Under the pieces are notes generated by a model, which ran no database searches, was not told where the DNA came from, and worked only from the letters and a program-made list of their open reading frames with translations. Source: a virus. Taken from it: 21,792 nt of DNA. Positions 1,205 through 18,886 of this stretch are shown here, piece by piece (the stretch's first letter is position 1; each line of letters begins with the position of its first letter). Location: positions 1 through 21,792 of IMG/VR virus record IMGVR_UViG_3300029813_000189. One strand, written 5' to 3'. The position numbers and the translations under genes are program-made.

Positions 1205-1600
1205 TCACTCTCCTTTCTGTATCCATTCTATTTCGGCCGCATGAGGTCGCCCGCTTTGTCGCACCGATTCTGGCGTCTTGGCGTTCGGTTGGTCATATAT
1301 CTTCCTCAACCGTTCAAACTCTGTTCTCCACGGCTCAGGACCAGCCTTCCAGGCGACAGGGATACGGTTCGGCGGGTGCTTTCCAGCTTCGGCCATTCGT
1401 ACGTCTACTAGGATTCGGATGATGAGAACTGGATCATCCATTAACAAGTGGCCACAACGAGCGGCCATGTATTTCATGCCATCGGCAAAGGCCAAGCCAT
1501 TTTCGGTCATTGGCTGGCTGATTCGTTCTGGCTGTGGCACTTGGTTCGGAGCTTGGACTAGCGCCCGTCTCTGCTGCCGCACGCCGTGCAACTTAACCAT
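1205..1600 (-). CDS. Hypothetical phage protein downstream of TerL
   Basis: 131 aa, basic at the N-terminus, with a C-terminal PEPWRTEFERLRKIYD helix. The ATG at 1600-1598 overlaps the TerL stop (TGATG), so I prefer it over the in-frame TTG one codon upstream. A GGAG lies a few nt before it. No recognised domain. Because it is coupled directly to TerL it is likely co-expressed with packaging or head genes. Confidence 0.65.
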   Translation of the reverse strand: MVKLHGVRQQRRALVQAPNQVPQPERISQPMTENGLAFADGMKYMAARCGHLLMDDPVLIIRILVDVRMAEAGKHPPNRIPVAWKAGPEPWRTEFERLRKIYDQPNAKTPESVRQSGRPHAAEIEWIQKGE

Positions 1601-3222
1601 CAATACGCTCCGAAAATGTCATCGTAGGCTCTAATATTTGCCCTTTCATAGTCCCGCATGGCTATTAGCGTGTCCACTGAATCGACGCCAAAATCTCCAC
1701 CAAATTCATCCTGTCTTCTTTGTAGCGTCCGTTGCCACGCCTCCGGTGGCGGCGGATACACGACGGGCACGTCGCCGAACATTAGGGCCTGGAGTAAGTT
1801 GATTCCGTCTATGACCTCACCCCGCTGGCTCATACTGTTTGGAATTCGGTTCGCTTCGCAAGGGAGTCCCTGTTGTACCATCAGCGTGATTGAGCCCGGC
1901 TGTGAACGATCGGCTACCGTGCCGATTATCGGTTCCCGACCGGATATCGCCAGGATGTCGCGAGCGTGATTGAGGATCGAAAGGCCATGTGCAGCCGCGT
2001 GCAATATGTACATCTCCCGGTATACATGAATGTGTCCGCTTAGATCGAAATGCGAACAAAGGTAACGAATTGTGTCACAGGTGTGATTATTCCGATCGGC
2101 CGGCCGGCCTGAATCCGTCCAGCCATAGCCAGTCAACTCCCGCCAGGTGTTCGGGCACGCCCTGACATCGACAGAAAACCCCGGTTCGCCCCTTTTGTGA
2201 GCAACCCAGAGGCATACAAACGGATCGACTCCGCCCCAATCCAGACCACGATACAAGTCATAGCCACTGTCGATCAGAACCGGCAATTCCAGGCTGCGAT
2301 CATGCTTATCACGGATGAGCATCGGATAGACCTTACCCGTGGGCATCTGGAATGCTTCTTCAGGCGTTGCTGGGAACTCCTGCTTGAAATAAATTTCGTC
2401 TCCGCGAAAGTTTCCCGCAATCTGTCGCCGACGCCAGGCCAGTTGTCCATCATCGAGATGGAAAGTTTCGATCAGCCAGTTTTCGTAGTCGGTTTTCTCA
2501 TCAAGCTCAACGCCTGTTAAGCGGTATCCAGTGTCCTCAAACCACGGAGAAAAGAACGCCAAGTAGTTCCCTTCACCGTTCTCTGCGATCTCCCATCGCT
2601 GTTTGAACTCTCCTGTAAGGTCGAGCATATTAGCCGTGCTTTCGATAATGATGATCGAGTTCGGATTTTCAGGGACAGATTGCAGGACTGAGGCAAGTTG
2701 GTCTTGAACCGGAATGCGTGTGTTTTGCCACTTCGCCATTTCGGAGAGGTGCAGGGCATTTGTATTGGCCCCCGAGCTCACATGGAGACCTCCAGCCGTT
2801 CGGGTGCTCATATCGCTATCATGCTCCCAGCGGATCGGATTCATCTTGCCCACCGGCTGCAATCTGCCTCGATAGAGACTGAAAACACGCTCGCTGATTT
2901 CATGGATGTCAGTCGTGCTGTCTTCGGTATGAGCAATCGTCCGTGCTTTCCAGTGGGCAGTGAATTGGCACAAGAAAGCGAACAACAATTGCACAAAGGT
3001 CGAACATCCTTCCTTGCGAGCCTTAAGGACAATCGTGCGGATCGGCTCCTTTCGCTTTGCCTGAGCCAGCAAAACGGCGAAGAGCCGCTCCTGCATCGCG
3101 TTCAGGTGAAAAGTCTCGATATCACCATCCTTGTTCTTAATTTTGTAATTACCCTGCGCGCACCACAGCCAGAAGCTCCGCAACTTGTCGGCCATCGGCG
3201 TGCCGGTCCCGAAAACTTCCAT
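1600..3222 (-). CDS. terL: Terminase large subunit (DNA packaging ATPase/nuclease)
   Basis: 540 aa, normal length for TerL, which threads phage DNA into proheads and cuts it. The ATPase domain shows a deviant Walker A (KARKEGCST, residues about 67-75), an acidic HLSE motif about 158-161 in the Walker B position, and IIIESTAN about 191-198 as the coupling motif. FKQEFPATPEEAF (about 279-291) is the linker motif seen in many TerLs. The RNase-H-like nuclease domain begins with YRGLDWGG (about 324), giving the first catalytic Asp. GGAGA sits 5 nt before the ATG. The 5' leader is a compact set of helices (3233-3340). Confidence 0.93.
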   Translation of the reverse strand: MEVFGTGTPMADKLRSFWLWCAQGNYKIKNKDGDIETFHLNAMQERLFAVLLAQAKRKEPIRTIVLKARKEGCSTFVQLLFAFLCQFTAHWKARTIAHTEDSTTDIHEISERVFSLYRGRLQPVGKMNPIRWEHDSDMSTRTAGGLHVSSGANTNALHLSEMAKWQNTRIPVQDQLASVLQSVPENPNSIIIIESTANMLDLTGEFKQRWEIAENGEGNYLAFFSPWFEDTGYRLTGVELDEKTDYENWLIETFHLDDGQLAWRRRQIAGNFRGDEIYFKQEFPATPEEAFQMPTGKVYPMLIRDKHDRSLELPVLIDSGYDLYRGLDWGGVDPFVCLWVAHKRGEPGFSVDVRACPNTWRELTGYGWTDSGRPADRNNHTCDTIRYLCSHFDLSGHIHVYREMYILHAAAHGLSILNHARDILAISGREPIIGTVADRSQPGSITLMVQQGLPCEANRIPNSMSQRGEVIDGINLLQALMFGDVPVVYPPPPEAWQRTLQRRQDEFGGDFGVDSVDTLIAMRDYERANIRAYDDIFGAY

Positions 3223-3232
3223 TCAAGTCTCC

Positions 3233-3340
3233 GCCCAAACAAAAGGGGCGCGACGGATAAACCGCGCGCCCCAGTACAGGCTCGGTGGTACTGCACCTAT
3301 AAGCCGACGATCAGACGGCCGGTGCCTGCTTTGTTTGGGC
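3233..3340 (-). promoter_or_regulatory. Cloverleaf-like structured leader ahead of terL
   Basis: An 11-bp perfect inverted repeat (3233-3243 with 3330-3340) encloses three further hairpins. They are 3245-3256 with 3262-3272 (11 bp, one bulged base, 5-nt loop), 3273-3277 with 3288-3292 (5 bp), and 3293-3297 with 3321-3325 (5 bp, containing a further 4-bp stem). The closing strand ends exactly where the terL Shine-Dalgarno begins. On the minus strand the GC-rich hairpin is followed by TTTTGTTT, so it could also act as an intrinsic terminator. It could be a regulatory leader, an RNA processing site or a packaging-site structure. The pairing was found by eye, not by folding software. Confidence 0.6.
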
Positions 3341-4097: not shown

Positions 4098-4119
4098 GTC
4101 ATTCTCCTAAAGAGTGAAA

Positions 4120-4189
4120 CCCGCACCGAGCGTTGGCCAAGGAGCAAGCCTCGGTCCCGCGGCGCACGGCCAAGGGAACTCGGTGCGGG
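4120..4189 (-). promoter_or_regulatory. Structured spacer with long outer helix
   Basis: An 11-bp perfect inverted repeat (4120-4130 with 4179-4189, CCCGCACCGAG and its complement) encloses a second 6-bp helix (4133-4138 with 4168-4173). It fills the gap between two genes and ends about 10 nt before the ribosome binding site of the 3984-4097 gene. Same design as the terL leader. It is followed on the minus strand by TTTCACTCTTT, so terminator or attenuator activity is possible. Confidence 0.55.
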
Positions 4190-4191
4190 CT

Positions 4192-4419
4192 TCATGGTCC
4201 ACGAATATTGTCTGATTCACCCCGAATCAAAGCTGTAAGTTCCCCTGACGCGAGAGGTGTCTGCCGATGCACGATTACGTCGGAATTGAAGTGAACAGCG
4301 GCGCGATCCAATAGGCTATCCCAGTCCAAACCTTGCTCTACCGCCAGGTCGCACAACTGAGACTTCGACAGCCCATAGGCTGACCATTCTGGTGTCCACT
4401 CAGTCGGTGCGAGCTTCAT
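4192..4419 (-). CDS. Small hypothetical protein
   Basis: 75 aa beginning MKLAPTEWTPEWSAYGLSKS, acidic and soluble, no recognised domain. The ATG overlaps the stop of the upstream membrane protein (ATGA), so the two are translationally coupled. Downstream lies a structured spacer. No function can be assigned beyond membership of the putative lysis/membrane gene cluster. Confidence 0.65.
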   Translation of the reverse strand: MKLAPTEWTPEWSAYGLSKSQLCDLAVEQGLDWDSLLDRAAVHFNSDVIVHRQTPLASGELTALIRGESDNIRGP

Positions 4420-5251: not shown

Positions 5252-5281
5252 CAAAATGATCCTTTGCAAAAAATGGTCAGC

Positions 5282-5321
5282 ATCGGACTGGGCCAAGTGA
5301 CAAATCCTGGCCCAGTCCGAT
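5282..5321 (-). terminator. Strong hairpin before holin-like gene
   Basis: A perfect 14-bp stem (ATCGGACTGGGCCA with its complement) and a 12-nt loop. On the minus strand a T6 run follows 8 nt after the stem, then the ribosome binding site of the holin-like gene. It may be a weak terminator or attenuator, or an RNase III-type processing site. Confidence 0.5.
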
Positions 5322-5334
5322 AGCCCAGAGGATA

Positions 5335-5372
5335 ACAAAAAGAGGAAAGCTGGCGCACTCTCGTGGGCCAGC
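5335..5372 (-). terminator. Intrinsic terminator after lipoprotein gene
   Basis: Minus-strand hairpin GCTGGC-C-CAC with a GAGA (GNRA) tetraloop, one internal mismatch, followed by TTTCCTCTTTTTG. A plausible rho-independent terminator for the lipoprotein operon, 35 nt past its stop codon. Confidence 0.55.
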
Positions 5373-5406
5373 CGGGATGTTCCGTGGAACAGTGCCCGCG
5401 AGTCCT

Positions 5407-5622
5407 CTATTCTCGTTCTTGCGAAAAGCCTTTCGAGCAATCCGCAGCATCGTGTAAATCCTCTATGACAGCATCCAGTGTGGCGTCGGCTACGTCCTCA
5501 CCGGGGCCGACTTCGACGCTCAGCTTGGCTGCCGTGGCGTGGTAGTGGAAATGAAGCGGAATCTGGCAGCCGGTAATCAGCACCAGAAGCGCACAGATTG
5601 GCGCCAGCCAGCGGCTACTCAT
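5407..5622 (-). CDS. Small lipoprotein, possible outer-membrane spanin
   Basis: 71 aa. Signal peptide at residues 1-18 with hydrophobic core and lipobox LITGC (lipidated Cys19), then a short mature domain of about 53 residues. Size and lipobox match phage o-spanin-like proteins, and the membrane/coiled-coil protein nearby could be a partner, though they are not adjacent as Rz/Rz1 usually are. The start overlaps the end of the upstream zinc-finger-like gene by 8 nt. Confidence 0.7.
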   Translation of the reverse strand: MSSRWLAPICALLVLITGCQIPLHFHYHATAAKLSVEVGPGEDVADATLDAVIEDLHDAADCSKGFSQERE

Positions 5623-6173: not shown

Positions 6174-6439
6174 GGTTTCTCCTTTGCTAGTTGAGCGCGA
6201 TAGTTTCTCTCTAAGTTGTTCCACATCGCCTGCGGTACACCGGTGGCTCTCTCAAGCAACACAGCGATCTCAGCCGTGACCGGAGCGTCGCCCGCGATGA
6301 TCGCCTCGATCTCTTGGTAAGAAGGGGTCATGCGGTATTGAAGCTGAACGATACCGACGCCTTGGGCGCGCATGAGCTCTCGCAGCGTCTCCCCCGGCGG
6401 AACGGCGTAGTAGGGTAGGATGTCCGGGCTATTTGCCAT
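6170..6439 (-). CDS. HigA/VapI-like helix-turn-helix protein
   Basis: 89 aa. PGETLRELMRAQGV near the N-terminus, IEAIIAGDAPVTAEIAVLLE in the recognition region and a TGVPQAMWNNLERNYRAQL tail match the HigA antitoxin/XRE family layout, where PGE...L, I-xG-xxxITAE.A..L and ..FW.NL...Y are typical. No toxin gene is adjacent, so it may be a solitary regulator. The first 11 nt overlap the end of the upstream gene. Confidence 0.75.
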   Translation of the reverse strand: MANSPDILPYYAVPPGETLRELMRAQGVGIVQLQYRMTPSYQEIEAIIAGDAPVTAEIAVLLERATGVPQAMWNNLERNYRAQLAKEKP

Positions 6440-7577
6440 TGCTCGCCTGATCCCAGCCCTGCTTGAATACCCACAAGTGATCCCACCAGTGACGTGCTGC
6501 GCGCTTCTCGGTGCGCACACGCCCCGTCTCCGGTTCTGGCACCTCGGGATAGAAGCACAGATGGGCCGGCCCCGGCGCGTTGCGCAGGAAGGAGCCGCAC
6601 AACTCGCTTTGGGCAAGTGGGTATTCATAGCTCATGTCCCACTTCCACGCTCGGTTGACCATGCAACGGCCAGGGCTCGTCATGGCGGCGTCAATCAGCG
6701 TCGGTCCCGGCTCATCCCCGTCATGCCTAGCGGCTCGCGATCCAGGCCATTCTCGGTATCCCGCTCCCAATGCCACAAAGGGGACCGTCCTGGGCACCGG
6801 TTCCGCCGGCCATTTCCACACAGCCATGCCGCGTGAACGGTAGTACTCCGCATAGATGTTCTCGGTCCACCACAGCCGATAGAGACTTGGCGCGTAGAAA
6901 TTAACACGCGGCCCGACCCGACCCTGGCCATGGCTGCTTGGCGCTCCGTACCAGATGATCTCCGCAGCCGGACACAGATCGCGGGCTATGCGGTCGAAGG
7001 CAATCAGCTTCTCGGCAATACAGCTATCGTGACGAGTCTCTGCATCCCAATCAAGTCTCATCTTCTCGTGGTCGTAGACGATGAACCCGATCGGCACGTT
7101 CCTCTGGTCGGTACTTCGCTTAATATGGCTAAGTCGCTCGTGGAAACTACTGAGCGTAGCGTTGTGTCGCCAGGAGTCCTTGCACGGATTCAAGCCATCT
7201 TCCCAGCCACCAGTGTGATAAGGTGAGAAATGAACGGCCAACACCGTGCCGGGCACCGCTGCCGCAATCTGGCGAGCCGACGCCCAGCGACTCGGACGAA
7301 ACCAATTCGCCGAGATGGACACGCATCCCGAGATGCGCGCAAACGCTTCAGCCAACCGCCGATTCTTCGGCTCGAACCATTCAGGCGCGTGCGGCCAGCT
7401 CAGGACTTTACACTGGAAAGGCTGCATCCCGTCCAAGCGAGCCGCGTACTGCGCGCGAACCTTATCCCAGTTTGTTCTGGCACTTTTCGTCCGAGGCTTA
7501 GACTTGGTACCGGGCACCTCGGCCTTTAGCCTTCCCACTTTCGTCTTTTTTGCTAGCGTAGTTTTTTTCGCCTTCAT
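6429..7577 (-). CDS. Large protein of possible TIM-barrel glycosidase type
   Basis: 382 aa, the largest gene in the membrane/lysis cluster. A Lys-rich N-terminal tail (about 35 residues) is followed by alternating hydrophobic strands and helices: VLAVHFSPYHTGGW, IGFIVYDHEKM, EIIWYGAPS, VNFYAPSLY, VPFVALGAG. Acidic residues at strand ends (notably YDHE) and aromatic-rich loops suggest a (beta/alpha)8 carbohydrate-active enzyme, possibly the lysin or a glycan-degrading virion enzyme. No family motif is certain. AAGGAG lies 5 nt before the ATG, with ATGA coupling upstream. Ends in TAG. Confidence 0.8.
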   Translation of the reverse strand: MKAKKTTLAKKTKVGRLKAEVPGTKSKPRTKSARTNWDKVRAQYAARLDGMQPFQCKVLSWPHAPEWFEPKNRRLAEAFARISGCVSISANWFRPSRWASARQIAAAVPGTVLAVHFSPYHTGGWEDGLNPCKDSWRHNATLSSFHERLSHIKRSTDQRNVPIGFIVYDHEKMRLDWDAETRHDSCIAEKLIAFDRIARDLCPAAEIIWYGAPSSHGQGRVGPRVNFYAPSLYRLWWTENIYAEYYRSRGMAVWKWPAEPVPRTVPFVALGAGYREWPGSRAARHDGDEPGPTLIDAAMTSPGRCMVNRAWKWDMSYEYPLAQSELCGSFLRNAPGPAHLCFYPEVPEPETGRVRTEKRAARHWWDHLWVFKQGWDQASNGK

Positions 7578-7765: not shown

Positions 7766-7839
7766 TTCATCCTCGCACAAACAACCGGGCGCCCCGTGCC
7801 TTTACCCTTTTTGACGGCAACGAGGGAAAGTGCTGCCAT
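7762..7839 (-). CDS. 25-residue micro-ORF coupled to next gene
   Basis: ATG at 7839 with AAGGG 6 nt upstream encodes MAALSLVAVKKGKGTGRPVV plus five residues, and stops in ATGA overlap with the ATG of the next gene. Placement and spacing suggest a translated leader or a very small basic peptide. The sequence alone cannot separate this from chance. Confidence 0.4.
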   Translation of the reverse strand: MAALSLVAVKKGKGTGRPVVCARMK

Positions 7840-8095
7840 ATCTAGCCCTTCCCGGGACACGCCGCGGAGAGCAGTAGGCGATTACCGGTTTGGTTAGAAG
7901 CCAACATTTCGTACCCATTACGTCTCGGGACGCCCGGTTCGATTCAATGCGGCGGGCCGGTCCTACCCCGGCCATGGGTGGGCAGCGCTTTGCCGGACAG
8001 AAATCCAGAGTTGTCATGCCCTATCTTCGCCTCAGCATGCGAGGCCCCAGCTCGACTTGCCTGCGTGTCATGTCGCCACGCCGCCGCCGCATAAC
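7840..8095. other. Gene-free structured region with repeat copy A
   Basis: No convincing gene. It contains an imperfect hairpin around 7861-7882, GTTTGG/CCAAC around 7899-7916, CGGG-ACG-CCCG at 7926-7936, and a long-range inverted repeat ATGCGGCGG/CCGCCGCAT (7947-7955 with 8084-8092). The ends of the last element are repeated near 13.1 kb. Confidence 0.5.
7945..8092. repeat. Dispersed repeat copy A, conserved ends and unique middle
   Basis: The plus-strand sequence begins CAATGCGGCGGGCCG and ends CGCCACGCCGCCGCCGCAT. Both end sequences recur in the same order at 13103-13117 and 13183-13201. The middle (about 110 nt here) is not shared. The ends are imperfect inverted repeats of each other. 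Confidence 0.55.
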
Positions 8096-10183: not shown

Positions 10184-10339
10184 TCAGACCCCGCCGGCGG
10201 ACCGGGAACGTCCCGGCTGAAGAACTGAGCGTTCATGCCCTGGCTGTTGGGGCTGAGCTTCATTTGTCACCGGCGGGGCTGTTACTTTTACTGTGACAAA
10301 GTTCGTCGTGTTCGCATCGTCTGCAGTCGTTTTTTCCAT
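10184..10339 (-). CDS. Possible 51-residue Pro/Gln/Arg-rich protein
   Basis: ATG at 10339 with GAGGG just upstream. MEKTTADDANTTNFVTVKVT is followed by a Pro/Gln-rich, basic tail. It overlaps the end of the upstream cysteine-rich gene by 80 nt in another frame, but it fills the otherwise empty 10187-10259 and ends directly before the next ribosome binding site. Confidence 0.45.
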   Translation of the reverse strand: MEKTTADDANTTNFVTVKVTAPPVTNEAQPQQPGHERSVLQPGRSRSAGGV

Positions 10340-11443: not shown

Positions 11444-12208
11444 TCAGGCGCCGCCGCCTCCAGGCAACGAGCCTGGCGTCGCGTCGTGCGACTCCACGTC
11501 GCCGCCGGCGCTCTTTGGCCGACGGAAAGAGGGCCAGTCGCAGAGCCAGATGCCGCCCGTTTCTAACAATCGGCCATAAATACTCAGACCGATTGACAAC
11601 TTGAACTCATCGGGTTCCTGATTGCTAATTAGCACCGTGTCGAGTTTGTCGCCATAACGCACGTCGATCAGGTAGGTTAGCAACCGGTTTTCCCAATCGC
11701 TACCACCGCGCTCATGGGCATCATCCACAATCAGCAGTGTTCGTTTCGTGAACTCGTCAAGTTGCTGGCGCTCAGTCGGGCCGTTTGGCCGATATGCCTC
11801 GCGGATGCCCATGAAGATGTCGAGCGTCCGAACATATAGCGGCCAAGGCCGCTCCGATGTTTCGATGTGGTGACGAACCAGCTCAACCGCGAGCTGTGTC
11901 TTGCCCGTACCCCGCTCACCGAGCAAGGCAACGAGAAAGCCGTCGCCAAGCCGTTCACTAAGCCCATCCAGCTTTTGCCTCCACGGCACGCAGATGTTCT
12001 CGATTACAGGAGCGTGCCGGCGTGGGATACCAGCGTTCGCCCCGGCCCTCCGGCGCCGAGTCTGAGTTTGCATCCTCTCCAATTCCGCAATACTTGGCAT
12101 ATCAGAAGCGGGTGGCTTCGCCAGGATCGGAGGCATACTCTCCTGGATGGCGCTCGCTCCAGGTAGTCGGCGGTTTTCGAGCACCTGTTCGTACTGCTTT
12201 TCCGTCAT
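11444..12208 (-). CDS. DnaC/IstB-like AAA+ helicase loader
   Basis: 254 aa from the ATG at 12208 (GGAG 8 nt upstream). Walker A GERGTGKT at about 97-104, Walker B LLIVDD at about 158-163, sensor-1-like LISNQ at about 193-197. These identify a DnaC/IstB-type ATPase, which in phages loads the replicative helicase at the origin (lambda P-like role). The N-terminal 65 residues are Pro/Arg-rich, and this part overlaps the end of the initiator gene by 107 nt. A start at 12100 without a ribosome binding site would avoid the overlap. The last residues (PGGGGA) look disordered. Confidence 0.85.
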   Translation of the reverse strand: MTEKQYEQVLENRRLPGASAIQESMPPILAKPPASDMPSIAELERMQTQTRRRRAGANAGIPRRHAPVIENICVPWRQKLDGLSERLGDGFLVALLGERGTGKTQLAVELVRHHIETSERPWPLYVRTLDIFMGIREAYRPNGPTERQQLDEFTKRTLLIVDDAHERGGSDWENRLLTYLIDVRYGDKLDTVLISNQEPDEFKLSIGLSIYGRLLETGGIWLCDWPSFRRPKSAGGDVESHDATPGSLPGGGGA

Positions 12209-12914
12209 CACTTCGGCTCCATTCTTTGGGATCATCATCGTACCGGCCGTGGTTCATCCACGTCGTCGGGTGCGGCGTGTAGGCGCCGGCCTGACCGGCT
12301 GGACTGGCCGCGAACTCCTTGACACGAGCGAGAAGCCAATCGGCGGCGTCGACCATCCCGTCCCGCTTGGCGATTTCCCGGAGTGCTTTCTCGATTGCGA
12401 GCATCGCCTTCTTCTTCCCGACCTTCCGTGGATAGGTCCGATAAATCGTCTCAATCTCTGATTTCGAACAAGAGTATTTTTGGGTCTTCTTCTTGGGTCT
12501 AGTTCTTGGTTCTAGTTTATGTCCGATTTTCGGACACGGGCCGTCCGATTTTCGGACACGGGCCGTCCGATTTTCGGACACGGCAGGTGCGTCGGGCGGT
12601 TCATTTTCAGACACGTCTTTTTTCCAGTCCGGCCAACCCGGTATTCGATAGCGGTTCGTTTGCCGACGCGCATTCCGGCCAGCGCGTTCTACCGTCAATA
12701 GGCCCAGATTCAATAATCGATCAATCGAACCGGAAACGGTTGATTCAGCAATGTGACAATCTTGGGCCAAAGAATGGCGACTCGGCCAAGCTGTGCCGTT
12801 TTTGTCCATGCGATTCCAAAGGACTGCAAAAACTAGCTTAGTCGTGCTTGTCAGATCGCGGCGACTCAAAATATCACGAGGTAGTTTCACAAAGGGCGTC
12901 CATTTGATTCCCAT
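12102..12914 (-). CDS. Winged-helix replication initiator (lambda O-like)
   Basis: 270 aa. Residues about 10-90 form a helix-turn-helix/winged-helix domain (KWTPFVKLPRDIL...STTKLVFAVLW...SRHSLAQDCHIAESTVSGSI...GLLTV), as in phage O-type initiators. The middle is hydrophilic and encoded by the iterons and purine-rich 13-mers. The C-terminal half has a YRTYPRKVGKKKAM segment typical of phage replication proteins that contact the loader, and is followed by the loader gene. No Shine-Dalgarno precedes the ATG, which lies 15 nt after a 19-bp stem. Confidence 0.85.
   Translation of the reverse strand: MGIKWTPFVKLPRDILSRRDLTSTTKLVFAVLWNRMDKNGTAWPSRHSLAQDCHIAESTVSGSIDRLLNLGLLTVERAGRNARRQTNRYRIPGWPDWKKDVSENEPPDAPAVSENRTARVRKSDGPCPKIGHKLEPRTRPKKKTQKYSCSKSEIETIYRTYPRKVGKKKAMLAIEKALREIAKRDGMVDAADWLLARVKEFAASPAGQAGAYTPHPTTWMNHGRYDDDPKEWSRSDDGKAVRTGARKPPTTWSERHPGEYASDPGEATRF
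12479..12517 (-). other. Three tandem purine-rich 13-mers, candidate unwinding element
   Basis: Minus strand: AACTAGAACCAAG (12517-12505), AACTAGACCCAAG (12504-12492), AAGAAGACCCAAA (12491-12479). They directly follow the iterons and resemble the AT-rich/13-mer unwinding region beside lambda and bacterial origins. The region is also coding. Confidence 0.55.
12521..12586. repeat. Three 22-bp palindromic iterons, candidate replication origin
   Basis: Three head-to-tail 22-bp units (12521-12542, 12543-12564, 12565-12586, the last diverging after 19 bp), each containing the palindrome GTCCGATTTTCGGAC. The spacing of about two helical turns puts binding sites on one DNA face. They sit within the initiator gene, as lambda ori sits in gene O. 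Since 22 is not a multiple of 3, each unit is translated in a different frame. Confidence 0.7.
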
Positions 12915-12928
12915 GCGGGGATACCCGA

Positions 12929-13011
12929 AACACGGCTCGCCCGAGTTTGAATGCGGCAGAGAGCAGCCGGACGGTCCCTCGCGGTAACCGAGAACTCGGG
13001 CGAGCCGTGTT
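12929..13011 (-). promoter_or_regulatory. 19-bp stem with internal hairpins before initiator gene
   Basis: The perfect inverted repeat AACACGGCTCGCCCGAGTT (12929-12947 with 12993-13011) encloses about 45 nt with CTCG/CGAG and GGC/GCC hairpins. It ends 14 nt before the initiator ATG, which has no Shine-Dalgarno. A candidate RNA switch on replication-protein synthesis, or a DNA cruciform near the origin. Confidence 0.6.
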
Positions 13012-13102: not shown

Positions 13103-13202
13103 CAATGCGGCGGGCCGATAGGCACCAACTTCAGTCCGCTCTAACCGACTACTGGACCTCCTGGTGTAGTACGACGCGCTTGCGCCACGCCGCCGCCGCA
13201 TT
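13103..13202. repeat. Dispersed repeat copy B, conserved ends and unique middle
   Basis: Begins CAATGCGGCGGGCCG and ends with CGCCACGCCGCCGCCGCAT, both shared with 7945-8092. The ends pair as a 10-bp helix (13104-13113 with 13193-13202). The 65-nt middle differs from copy A and holds ACTAC/GTAGT and ACC/GGT arms. It starts at the stop codon of the 13202-13630 gene. Confidence 0.55.
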
Positions 13203-14449: not shown

Positions 14450-15415
14450 TCAGGCGTCGTGTGCATTGCCATTCGGGGTCTCCACTGGTACGCCCTTGGC
14501 GCCACATGCCAGACATTCGCGCCCACTAAGGCTCTTATCCCAGACTGTTTCCCCCGGACAATTCGGACAGCGCAATAGCTCGCATTTGGCAGGTTGTGCC
14601 GGTTCGCCGTCAAACATGCGGCCGATGTCTGTGCCGCCATTTGTTGGCGGCGGTTCAGTCTCCGTCTTTGTCGTATTGGCAATCGCGGCGACTGGTTTCC
14701 GCTTCCGCGTCTTCGGCTCGGCGGCTACTTTATCCAGCAGCTTTGCACCAGTCGTGCGGTCAATAGTTACTGGTGGGGCTTGCTCTTTCAGTTGCTCCTT
14801 CAGCGCCTCGGTTCCGCTAAGTAGCGCCGTGCTCTCAGTCAGCGGACTCTCGGGGTAATCAAGCAGTTCTTCGGTACATGCGATTCCACGGAGCACGTCC
14901 GGGAATGTATCGCGCAGGCAAAAGCTCCGGGCGCGCATTTGCAACATACGCTGCGGGTAGGCCTGCCATGAACCTTGCTTGTTCCACAGGCCGGCCTTTT
15001 TCGCCTCAGCGACACCGAAGCGCCGCTCGGTCCAATCGCTGCGACCCCGTCGCTTCGCCCGGCAAATAGCGGTTATCTCGTCGCCGTTGATATTGATCGT
15101 CTCGGCGATCCCTTCACAAAGCGGCGAAGCCTGAACGACCGCCAGAAACCCATCACCCCACAGTGATGGCCGGCCGTTGATGACGGCGATTGACTGCACG
15201 CTCTGCATCGGCGATAAACCGACCTCGGCACCGTGTTGGATCGCGACCAGAATCTGCGCCGGCTGGTCCATCCCTTTCGGCGCCATGCCGGATTGGGTAA
15301 CGAATTGGGCAAAGCGCCATAGGTCATCGAGGGTGCGCAGTTCAAGGCCGCGCTGGCCCATCGTGATCGGCGCCAAAGCGGTCTGTTGAGTCTTGTCATT
15401 TGCGCGTTCAGGCAT
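14450..15415 (-). CDS. recT: RecT-family single-strand annealing protein with C-terminal zinc ribbon
   Basis: 321 aa. The block WRFAQFVTQSGMAPKGMD, then QILVAIQHGAEVGLSPMQSV and GRPSLWGDG (about residues 33-90) is the RecT/Bet-like core that anneals single strands. C-terminal of a Lys/Pro/Thr-rich linker are CPNC and CLAC pairs (about residues 275-305), a zinc ribbon not standard for RecT. The ATG at 15415 overlaps the stop of the exonuclease gene by 8 nt, and AGGA lies 9 nt upstream. Confidence 0.88.
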   Translation of the reverse strand: MPERANDKTQQTALAPITMGQRGLELRTLDDLWRFAQFVTQSGMAPKGMDQPAQILVAIQHGAEVGLSPMQSVQSIAVINGRPSLWGDGFLAVVQASPLCEGIAETININGDEITAICRAKRRGRSDWTERRFGVAEAKKAGLWNKQGSWQAYPQRMLQMRARSFCLRDTFPDVLRGIACTEELLDYPESPLTESTALLSGTEALKEQLKEQAPPVTIDRTTGAKLLDKVAAEPKTRKRKPVAAIANTTKTETEPPPTNGGTDIGRMFDGEPAQPAKCELLRCPNCPGETVWDKSLSGRECLACGAKGVPVETPNGNAHDA

Positions 15416-16295
15416 GTTTCGGTTTCCTGTATCTGAGCACCCGAAAGGTGTTTTCGGCTCTAGTATGAGCCGGAACCGTCTGTTCGAGAAAGGTGATACT
15501 GCCTGCATCGCCGCCGTCGCCAGCTTCGGCGTCGCCCATCGCGGCGAGGATAAGCCGCTTGGTTTCTTCGGAGAATTTTACCGCGCGCGTTTTTTGTTCC
15601 TGGGCCATTTGCCAACTTTCCACGAGTTCAGGTCGTATCGGCACAGTCTTCTTTGGTTCCCGCCGCATGGCCCGTAGGATCGCCAGCGGCGGAACCGTCG
15701 CGCCCTCTGGTGGCACGCGGGCCACAACGTGCTGATTCCACCACTCCACAAGCTTTGCGACCATGAGCTTAATCAGCTCGTCATCACGGTTCACGCGGTA
15801 GAGCCGGCGCTCGGGCCGGTAGCGGGCCAGGAGCACCGGTATCCATACGGTTTGAAGCTCTGCCACGTACATCTGGTGCTGAACCTGGGCGATGACGTAT
15901 GGCGGAACCTGATCCGTTCCCTCGTCGCCCCATTCGTCAACGTGATCCGGCCCGACGTACTTGGCCTCGATCGCTTCCGGTTTTCTGACGACCGTGGCGT
16001 CTAGGGTGCAGCTCAGCAGTTCGTTATCTGAACCTTTACTGACACGGAAGAGCCCGCGCTGAGAGGTTTTCACGCCGAGCTTCTCAGCCACGAAAGCGAT
16101 CAACGGCGCTTGAAGCCAGTGCCCCATCGCCTTTGATTCTGTTCGTTTGTCAGAGACAACTGGGCTGATCTTGTCGTAGTAGACATCGGCTTCGCCGCCC
16201 CATTCAGGCGGATAGAGTGCGAGAATCTTGGGATCGTCCGTCCCGGTGACATGCTTCTGCCGGCGCTCAAGTGCGTGTTGGCTGAGGCTGCTCAT
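15408..16295 (-). CDS. YqaJ-like exonuclease, RecT partner
   Basis: 295 aa. GHWLQAPLIAFVAEKLG (helix with Glu), LSCTLDATVV...EAIEAKYVG (the D...ExK catalytic triad) and VPPYVIAQVQHQMYV (the conserved Gln helix) match the YqaJ/lambda-exonuclease family. It resects double-strand ends to give 3' tails for RecT. The order is exonuclease, then RecT, directly overlapping. Confidence 0.88.
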   Translation of the reverse strand: MSSLSQHALERRQKHVTGTDDPKILALYPPEWGGEADVYYDKISPVVSDKRTESKAMGHWLQAPLIAFVAEKLGVKTSQRGLFRVSKGSDNELLSCTLDATVVRKPEAIEAKYVGPDHVDEWGDEGTDQVPPYVIAQVQHQMYVAELQTVWIPVLLARYRPERRLYRVNRDDELIKLMVAKLVEWWNQHVVARVPPEGATVPPLAILRAMRREPKKTVPIRPELVESWQMAQEQKTRAVKFSEETKRLILAAMGDAEAGDGGDAGSITFLEQTVPAHTRAENTFRVLRYRKPKHA

Positions 16296-17115: not shown

Positions 17116-17313
17116 TCACTTTTCTTCCGTTATGTCATGTTCGGCCTGAATCAGTACACGCAGATATTTTGCCGTGGAACCGTCGGGGCACTGAAACGTT
17201 TCTTCTAGGGTCTTCAGCGCTCTCTCGCAGCCACCGAGTAGAGCTGCTATGCGCCCTTCAAGCTCCGACAATTCCTCCCTGTCGCCAGCGTGGGAAATGT
17301 GTTCAGTCATCAT
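17116..17313 (-). CDS. Small acidic helical protein
   Basis: 65 aa, acidic. ATGATG start; helix with LEGRIAALLGGCERALKTLE. It begins directly after the stop of the small membrane protein gene. Function unknown. Confidence 0.6.
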   Translation of the reverse strand: MMTEHISHAGDREELSELEGRIAALLGGCERALKTLEETFQCPDGSTAKYLRVLIQAEHDITEEK

Positions 17314-17430
17314 TTATTCCGTCGTCAGCAAATCGTACATGCTCAGCAGAGCGAAAATCGCTCCACCAATGGCGAATAAGAATGCCGCAATCAGGCAGAT
17401 GCGCAAAAGCCAAAAGTCGAAAGCCGTCAT
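17314..17430 (-). CDS. 38-residue single-pass membrane protein
   Basis: GGAG lies 6 nt before ATG. MTAFDFWLLRICLIAAFLFA continues hydrophobic to GGAIFALLSMY, one membrane segment, then a short polar end. Just downstream of another one-pass peptide. No function assigned. Confidence 0.6.
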   Translation of the reverse strand: MTAFDFWLLRICLIAAFLFAIGGAIFALLSMYDLLTTE

Positions 17431-17433
17431 GCT

Positions 17434-17538
17434 TCACTCCGTCCTCAGGAGACTGTGAATCGTCAGTACCAGTCCCAGGATCACAGCGATGACCACGCAG
17501 ATACCGAAGATCAAGCCGCTTATCGTGATGTCTCTCAT
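17434..17538 (-). CDS. 34-residue single-pass membrane protein
   Basis: AGGGG lies 6 nt before ATG at 17538. MRDITISGLIFGICVVIAVI plus LGLVLTIHSLLRTE, a single membrane helix with basic C-terminus. The same frame stays open far upstream through the hairpin array, but that stretch is not protein-like (see rejected). Confidence 0.6.
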   Translation of the reverse strand: MRDITISGLIFGICVVIAVILGLVLTIHSLLRTE

Positions 17539-17565
17539 ATCATGCCCCTGTCCGCCGAGAAGGAT

Positions 17566-18373
17566 GGGCGGGTCGCTAGGCTGTTGGGACTCAGCCTGAG
17601 TAAGCTCGGCCCTCGACGCAAGCGACCCGCCCTGTTGGTGGTCAAGAGAGCACCCAGCGCTATGGGCAACCGGGTGCTCTTCGGAGGGGAAAGAAGCCAT
17701 TAGGATGGGCGGGCCGCCTCGTTTCTGGCCCACTTCTGAAGGAGCACCAGTAGAAGTGTGATCCAACGGCCCGCCCTTCAGGTGGAGAAAAGGCAAAAGA
17801 ATGGCGCCAAGTCGCACGGAACCTGGGGCTAAGGCTGCTTCGTGCGGAGTAGCCTTGAGCCACTCAACCGTATCCGGGTGGGGTTTCACCTTGGCGCCAT
17901 TAAAAGGACCTTCGGCTGGGCCGATGGCCGGGGACGCGTCCCACGGGAGACCGCCGGGAGCCGAAGACTTGCTCGTTAAAAAAACTTCGGGGCGGTGGAG
18001 AATACACGCCGTTCCTTTTCTGGCCACAGAGACGACGTGTGCCAGACACCCACAAAGCCCCGAAGTGTTAGCTGTCGCGCTCTCGCGCGACAGCCGGTTG
18101 CCCCCTGGGGTAGTGCCGGCGGATGTTCCGCCGTTATCGCGAAAAGCTCGAACAGGCAATCCGCGACAGGGGGTTAATTGACCGCCGAGGATCATCGCCG
18201 TGGTAGCTGGCTCCGACGGTTCGCGCGCAAAAAGGCCACCGGGGCGCTTCGCTGCATAGCGCCGGACGGACCAGGAGGGGTAGTCCGCATCGGCTGCGAT
18301 CGGCAACCCCGATGGCTGGGGGACACGATGCCCTTCCCTACTGATCCCGGTCGGCCTGTGTCGCCGTGTCCCC
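17566..18373 (-). ncRNA. Hairpin array, candidate ~810-nt structured phage RNA
   Basis: Gene-free and packed with perfect stems. Outer arms are 17566-17577 with 17621-17632 (12 bp), 17647-17655 with 17672-17680 (9), 17707-17716 with 17767-17776 (10), 17800-17811 with 17890-17901 (12), 17910-17917 with 17959-17966 (8), 17984-17993 with 18057-18066 (10), 18071-18079 with 18086-18094 (9), 18101-18107 with 18167-18173 (7), 18243-18247 with 18259-18263 (5), 18288-18293 with 18309-18314 (6) and 18319-18327 with 18365-18373 (9). Many enclose further hairpins, for example GGCGGA/TCCGCC at 18118-18132. It starts 1 nt after the RHH gene and lies downstream of a good promoter. Folding and transcription are inferred. 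Confidence 0.55.
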
Positions 18374-18374
18374 A

Positions 18375-18581
18375 TTACGCACTTTCTACTTCATCCGGGG
18401 CCGGTGCCGGCATAGACCTTGCTAACTCGCGCTCCTTAAGCCAAGCCCAAAGGACGTGCTGCGCGCGCAGGGTCACTTTCATGCGGCCCTGGAACTCCGG
18501 CCCTAACAGGCCCTCTATTCTGCGGTTCAGCTCTTGGCTGATTCGTACAGTTACAAAATCTTCTAATTCCTGCGCGCTCAT
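18375..18581 (-). CDS. Ribbon-helix-helix-like regulator
   Basis: 68 aa. DFVTVRISQELNRRIEGLLG has the strand-helix pattern of RHH proteins, followed by helices with RAQHVLWAWLKEREL and an acidic tail. AGGAG lies 8 nt before the ATG. It is the first gene after a strong promoter and immediately precedes the hairpin array, so it may control its own operon. Confidence 0.65.
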   Translation of the reverse strand: MSAQELEDFVTVRISQELNRRIEGLLGPEFQGRMKVTLRAQHVLWAWLKERELARSMPAPAPDEVESA

Positions 18582-18600
18582 TATCGCTTCTCCTACTGAT

Positions 18601-18629
18601 ACGATACCACAAGATTTATAGAATGTCAA
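18601..18629 (-). promoter_or_regulatory. Strong sigma70-type promoter
   Basis: TTGACA at 18629-18624, 17-nt spacer, TATCGT at 18606-18601. The transcript would start about 10-15 nt upstream of the RHH gene ribosome binding site and run leftward into the hairpin array. Confidence 0.7.
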
Positions 18630-18682
18630 ATAGGAATTTAATACAATTCAGAGATTGTCGTAAGAATAATACCCAGCTCGGC

Positions 18683-18886
18683 TTACGGCAAGCCCGTCGG
18701 CTGATCTATTGGCGCATGCTCCCCCGGTGGCGGTCCCGCGCGAACTCGACTCGGATAAACGCGTCTCCGGCGTGGATAATTGTGCCCCCCAGCCTTGCGT
18801 TTACTTTTCCCAGCGCTATCCCGGATCTTCACTCGCTTCCGTCGTGCCTTCGCTTTTGGCTTGCTCTGTGGTCGCCGCTTAGCCAT
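18683..18886 (-). CDS. Very basic small protein
   Basis: 67 aa, about a third Lys/Arg, beginning MAKRRPQSKPKAKARRKRVK, and Pro-rich at the end. AGGAG lies 6 nt before the ATG. Composition resembles DNA- or RNA-binding basic phage proteins; no fold is visible. Overlaps the upstream gene by 8 nt and ends in a hairpin (18680-18694). Confidence 0.6.
   Translation of the reverse strand: MAKRRPQSKPKAKARRKRVKIRDSAGKSKRKAGGHNYPRRRRVYPSRVRAGPPPGEHAPIDQPTGLP

Follow-up and report, generated by a model that had tools for sequence, protein, structure and literature searches.

Positions 17539 to 18374 of the window, a 21,792-nt virus record that was scanned over its full length, contain a row of ten closed stem domains on the minus strand. 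The best explanation of this array, which we offer as a tentative one, is that it represents an untranslated, highly folded spacer in a leftward-transcribed polycistronic mRNA of a tailed phage without close relatives in the data searched. It would be the longest of the intercistronic spacers made of closed domains that are found throughout the genome, with a proposed protective or processing role. Its assignment as structured RNA is supported by structure beyond chance, folding bias toward the gene strand, lack of a coding signal, and a covarying paralog within the same genome. The fold consists of local domains, and single or paired domains of this type also occupy six other gaps, so that the array looks like an extreme case of a feature of intercistronic regions across the genome. 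Thus, the original prediction of a large structured phage RNA is supported with respect to structured RNA (non-random stems, strand bias, non-coding sequence, and the paralog) but not with respect to a single discrete large noncoding RNA.

Genomic setting

The array (836 nt) spans exactly the sequence that separates the upstream stop codon (18375-18377) from the downstream start codon (17538), in agreement with its predicted location (17540-18374, starting right after the stop of the upstream gene). Nearly all genes in the window are directed leftward. The following features define the setting.

1600-3222: terminase large subunit
11444-12238: DnaC-like loader
12102-12914: replication protein
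14450-15427: RecT
15408-16295: YqaJ-type exonuclease
17434-17538, minus strand: downstream gene for a small membrane protein of 34 aa, starting 27 nt past the last array helix
18375-18590, minus strand: 71-aa gene, whose TAA stop codon lies 1 nt ahead of the first closing helix of the array
18601-18629, minus strand: candidate sigma-70-like promoter, TTGACA-17-TATCGT with a TG preceding the second hexamer (10/12 matches, a consensus match only)

The candidate promoter is located upstream of the 71-aa gene, so that the promoter predicted for the nearest upstream gene has a plausible counterpart in the sequence. The 71-aa protein is CopG-like by eye only and has no Pfam match. After the array, positions 17316-17538 encode two successive small membrane proteins of ~38 and 34 aa with similar C termini (YDLLTTE and HSLLRTE), which resemble paralogs. 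For a 382-aa tryptophan-rich protein encoded elsewhere in the window (6429-7577), phage records, Pfam, and viral contigs all yielded no match.

Searches of phages and plasmids revealed no DNA similarity, and no close relative of this phage was found in viral contigs, genome contigs, or phage and plasmid records. The best protein identities are 36% for the terminase, 37% for the YqaJ exonuclease, and 56% for RecT, the latter in Rhizobiales phages and genomes; an array of this kind is absent from all the checked loci of these protein matches. In terms of sequence similarity, this is an orphan phage within the data searched.

Comparison with known RNA families gave no match to GOLLD, ROOL, or any other Rfam family at either gathering or relaxed thresholds, as expected from the original prediction, which saw no sign of GOLLD or ROOL membership; a weak match to mir-2331 falls far under the cut-off of that family. 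Likewise, the statement that this is not a CRISPR or tRNA array is borne out in the window, which contains no tRNA genes (0 in 21.8 kb of a record that may be a fragment) and no regular repeats with spacers. Intrinsic terminators with a short-loop GC stem and a U tract have two weak matches in 17300-18800, one of them inside the array, versus 1.6 expected. An integron attC array was rejected as well, as the GTTRRRY/RYYYAAC cores are absent at the ends of all 19 domains tested on either strand.

Domain organization of the array

The array contains 7 perfect stems of 9 to 12 bp, whereas its dinucleotide shuffles (n=3000) contain a mean of 0.67 and a maximum of 5 stems of at least 9 bp, so that 0/3000 reach 7. 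The predicted excess of stems over chance is therefore real. With three further closing helices of 7 to 13 bp, some of which include G-U pairs, there are ten closed domains in total; together, these domains cover 655 of the 836 nt.

18319-18373, minus strand: E11, 9-bp closing helix GGGGACACG/CGUGUCCCC
18235-18316, minus strand: E10, closing helix of ~13 bp including G-U pairs, followed by CUUUUU; folding z of -3.1 (minus strand) versus -0.6 (plus strand)
18101-18173, minus strand: E8, 7-bp closing helix, interior folding strongly on the minus strand
18071-18094, minus strand: E7, 10-bp stem capped by a GAGA tetraloop
17984-18066, minus strand: E6, 10-bp closing helix, then a U run
17909-17967, minus strand: E5, closing helix of 8 to 9 bp, with a weak folding z
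17800-17901, minus strand: E4, 12-bp closing helix around several hairpins
17704-17779, minus strand: E3, closing helix of 10 to 13 bp
17647-17680, minus strand: E2, perfect 9-bp stem, 12 bp counting wobble pairs
17566-17632, minus strand: E1, 12-bp closing helix

The linkers that join these domains are short and often U-rich. The one between E10 and E8 (~60 nt) has no stable domain over it, and the piece at 18178-18228 within it folds with a z of +1.0, no better than shuffles. Hence, of the approximately eleven stems originally predicted, ten close folded domains and the eleventh, at 18178-18228, does not hold. E1 and E3 share the arrangement AGGGCGGG(U/C)CG ... CG(A/G)CCCGCCCAUCCU, with a single U-A to C-G change in the stem. 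In addition, there is a perfect 10-nt long-range complementarity between GGGCAACCGG in the E8-E7 linker (18094-18103) and CCGGUUGCCC in the E2 loop (17664-17673), which might represent a pseudoknot or chance; since one such 10-bp match is expected ~0.3 times by chance over a region this long (our estimate), this pairing is not claimed.

Folding of the whole array yields -401.3 kcal/mol on the minus strand (z -5.9) and -403.2 kcal/mol on the plus strand (z -5.1), with 0/20 shuffles as good in either case; the check proposed with the original prediction, folding of both strands against shuffled controls, thus came out in favor of structure. Genome-wide folding windows of 120 nt are too coarse to resolve individual domains. 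The domain interiors alone, analyzed on the minus strand with interior-only shuffling, give a Stouffer z of -2.9 for the array and -3.9 when the other gaps are added. Most of this signal is contributed by E8 (interior z -4.0 on minus), E4, and two domains from other gaps (at 3233 and 10189); within the array, it comes mostly from two domains. As the interiors are only modestly beyond chance, the closing helices represent the main signal, and the predicted enclosure of further hairpins by the larger stems is only partly special.

Strand preference

In composition-corrected paired shuffles, the minus strand folds better than the plus strand, with Stouffer z of -3.2 for 20 elements and -3.1 for the array. 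The advantage of the minus strand comes from G-U pairs in E2, E3, E8, and E10, which become A-C mismatches on the plus strand; E6 and E11 fold slightly better on plus. Such a folding bias toward the gene strand favors RNA on that strand over a DNA-level palindrome, pointing to the array as an RNA-level structure on the gene strand.

Similar domains in other gaps

When the entire window was scanned for perfect stems (at least 9 bp, loops of up to 170 nt), 30 were found, compared to about 12 expected, and the excess is intergenic. The twelve gaps examined contain 15 such stems versus 1.33 expected. These stems are found in 7 gaps, namely, the array and six others that each contain one or two similar closed domains. 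Stems of at least 9 bp are absent from the remaining five gaps, namely, the one with the promoter, the divergent one, and three short ones. In the same scan of other fetched phage loci (~1.04 Mb), the maximum was five non-overlapping stems per 850 nt, compared to 7 in the array. The runners-up in stem count, the AT-rich loci L050, L054, and L069, were set aside as simple-sequence effects.

3233-3340, minus strand: closed domain with an 11-bp closing helix that fills the gap between the terminase small and large subunit genes
4115-4194, minus strand: closed domain with a closing helix of 16 to 17 bp, in the gap that follows
5282-5321, minus strand: 14-bp hairpin in the gap 5252-5406
7783-7939, minus strand: closed domain, tiling the gap 7766-8095
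7947-8092, minus strand: second closed domain tiling the gap 7766-8095; its stem (A)AUGCGGCGG is shared with 13104-13202
10189-10278, minus strand: closed domain across a stop codon and the following gap
12929-13011, minus strand: closed domain with a 19-bp perfect closing helix, upstream of the replication gene
13104-13202, minus strand: closed domain that starts at a stop codon, with the 10-bp closing helix AAUGCGGCGG

The domains share a common design, a closing helix of 9 to 19 bp that mostly encloses smaller hairpins. In the gaps measured, closed domains usually start no more than 3 nt from the upstream stop codon or overlap it, and usually end 10 to 30 nt before the next start, leaving the GGAG-like site mostly exposed. 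Inside 3233-3340, a hairpin GGGGCGCG...CGCGCCCC is followed by UUUUGUUU, in which the U tract is paired to the AAACAAA segment of the outer helix; this inner hairpin resembles a terminator with a tail that can be sequestered. The identical 19 nt ATGCGGCGGCGGCGTGGCG opens two gaps (8074-8092 and 13183-13201), directly or 3 nt past the stop codon, and both of these gaps end with CGGCCCGCCGCATTG.

Duplicated GAGA module

One part of the array recurs in diverged form elsewhere in the genome.

18066-18128, minus strand: array module of two hairpins, comprising E7 and the end of E8
5344-5407, minus strand: diverged paralog of this module, right after the stop of the gene 5407-5622

The two modules align over 64 columns with an identical GAGA tetraloop. 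Among the 14 base pairs, 4 are compensated, with both sides differing, and 2 are disrupted in one of the copies. When substitutions were placed at random at the same rate, at least 4 compensated pairs arose in 4/100,000 trials, for a structure that was chosen after viewing the sequences, and a column-shuffle control on these two intragenomic copies gave 29/500. Given the post hoc choice of structure and the latter control, the compensated pairs represent support rather than proof. Within the array, the first hairpin of the module and the E8 closing helix compete with each other. A search of viral contigs with the DNA pattern of the module gave four chance matches, all without complementary arms, and its covariance model had no match in 959 kb of other DNA.

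Alternative explanations

The array might instead be a discrete large structured phage noncoding RNA of a new ornate class, made from the promoter ahead of 18375-18590, processed out of the transcript, and acting as one RNA particle. Its length of 836 nt, helix density, and phage origin recall GOLLD and ROOL (PMC12286853), and the upstream promoter (10/12), the U-rich linkers, and the paralogous GAGA module fit such an RNA. However, the array consists of local domains in a row rather than a fold with a demonstrated long-range core, like domains are present in other gaps, the window contains 0 tRNA genes, and there is no Rfam match even at relaxed thresholds. We consider this explanation unlikely.

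The position of the domains between a stop codon and the next ribosome-binding site is that of the RNase III sites of phage T7, and the hairpins conserve shape over sequence, which would fit intercistronic RNase III processing signals that have been multiplied in one gap. Nevertheless, in T7 itself the stem scan used here detects only two intergenic stems, neither of which coincides with an RNase III site. Ten domains in a row also exceed the need of cutting, and we regard this option as improbable.

We would assign a similarly low probability to mobile hairpin elements accumulating in intergenic DNA, like those of sponge and fungal mitochondria. Here, too, hairpins are nearly confined to gaps, sequence is shared in three partial pairs (7947-8092 and 13104-13202, E1 and E3, and 5344-5407 and 18066-18128), and mitochondrial analogues are known (PMC2800124). 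Still, most domain sequences are unrelated, and three partial pairs are not the many copies of one family; furthermore, strand asymmetry is unexpected for DNA elements, and the pattern search for the shared module gave chance matches only.

One minus-strand frame is open across the entire array as part of a 313-aa ORF (17434-18375) in frame with the downstream gene. In principle, the array could code for this protein by coupled translation at TAATG, with the hairpins being incidental. An open frame of such length arises in 33/4000 dinucleotide shuffles (P about 0.8%), its three-base periodicity is weak (P 0.009), and the middle of the array (17716-17967) has gene-like codon scores of up to 0.14 in the open minus frame, which could reflect a gene remnant or chance. 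However, the overall codon score of the frame is -0.007 (P 0.09 versus shuffles), compared to a leave-one-out gene mean of 0.119 and to 0.06 or higher for all genes of at least 250 codons. Its second-position G+C is 0.60 versus a gene mean of 0.45, and it has no Pfam or PHROG match; queries with the array translation, the 382-aa protein (6429-7577), and the 71-aa protein found nothing. In addition, the downstream gene starts on its own start codon, and the stems would be left unexplained, so that a coding role appears very improbable. We conclude, while retaining a small doubt, that the array is non-coding. The description of the region as gene-free thus stands as far as coding signature is concerned and needs correction in that one minus frame is open end to end; of the conserved coding frame named in advance as evidence against a structured RNA, the array shows only an open frame without the codon signature of this phage or a family match.

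The least probable option is a cis-acting antitermination RNA that would act like the put hairpins of HK022 and recur along an extended transcription unit: the duplicated module resembles put in consisting of two adjacent hairpins, and the genes of the window are almost all leftward, but there is no Rfam match and the domains occupy gaps throughout the unit, not just those after promoters.

Proposed role of the folded spacers

For the untranslated folded spacer, the explanation preferred here, we infer a protective role against Rho and RNase E. Once ribosomes stop, the spacer would fold at once into compact domains, which might shield the ribosome-free RNA from Rho and RNase E. Folding would also keep the stop codon and the next start close in space, while the next ribosome-binding site would stay free, outside the domains. 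In the array, ten domains that would resist RNases, with cuts in the short U-rich linkers, could possibly release a stable phage RNA.

On a broader scale, it is possible, although we hold this with less confidence, that the phage represents a lineage whose intercistronic space systematically consists of closed RNA domains lying between the stop codon and the ribosome-binding site, and in which a single gap has grown to a ten-domain RNA of 836 nt. To our knowledge, such a genome-scale mRNA architecture, and the new class of large phage RNA that comes with it, have not been described. If this is the case, intergenic mRNA folding would add to phage gene expression a heritable layer that is missed by gene annotation. 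The approximately twenty natural domains could then be used to probe the control of ribosome reinitiation, Rho entry, and RNA decay by inter-cistron structure, and the array would be of interest to structural studies as a candidate for a new large phage RNA.

Comparison with known systems

The domains resemble integron attC sites, which are imperfect inverted repeats of 60 to 140 nt directly after stop codons, but the GTTRRRY/RYYYAAC cores of attC are missing from the 19 domains tested here.

The early RNase III sites of phage T7 are single intercistronic hairpins of ~10 bp with small loops. As in T7, structured RNA, here in a predicted mRNA, lies between a stop codon and the next ribosome-binding site of co-directional genes. 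However, the domains described here are larger (up to 157 nt), have closing helices around inner hairpins, and are sometimes tiled, in contrast to the short single hairpins of the T7 type.

The repetitive hairpin-forming elements of mitochondria form sequence families in intergenic DNA (PMC2800124). Their intergenic concentration is shared by the domains of this phage, a few of which have common sequence, whereas most of the latter are unrelated in sequence, favor the gene strand, and fit tightly between stop codon and ribosome-binding site.

GOLLD and ROOL, ornate RNAs from phage and prophage genomes, assemble into homo-oligomeric RNA cages. Both are large phage RNAs that are often found near tRNA genes (PMC12286853). 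Like them, the array is phage-encoded, gene-free, hundreds of nucleotides long, and made up of many helices. It differs from GOLLD and ROOL in having no Rfam match or nearby tRNA genes, in consisting of local domains in a row, and in sharing its type of domain with other gaps of the same genome.
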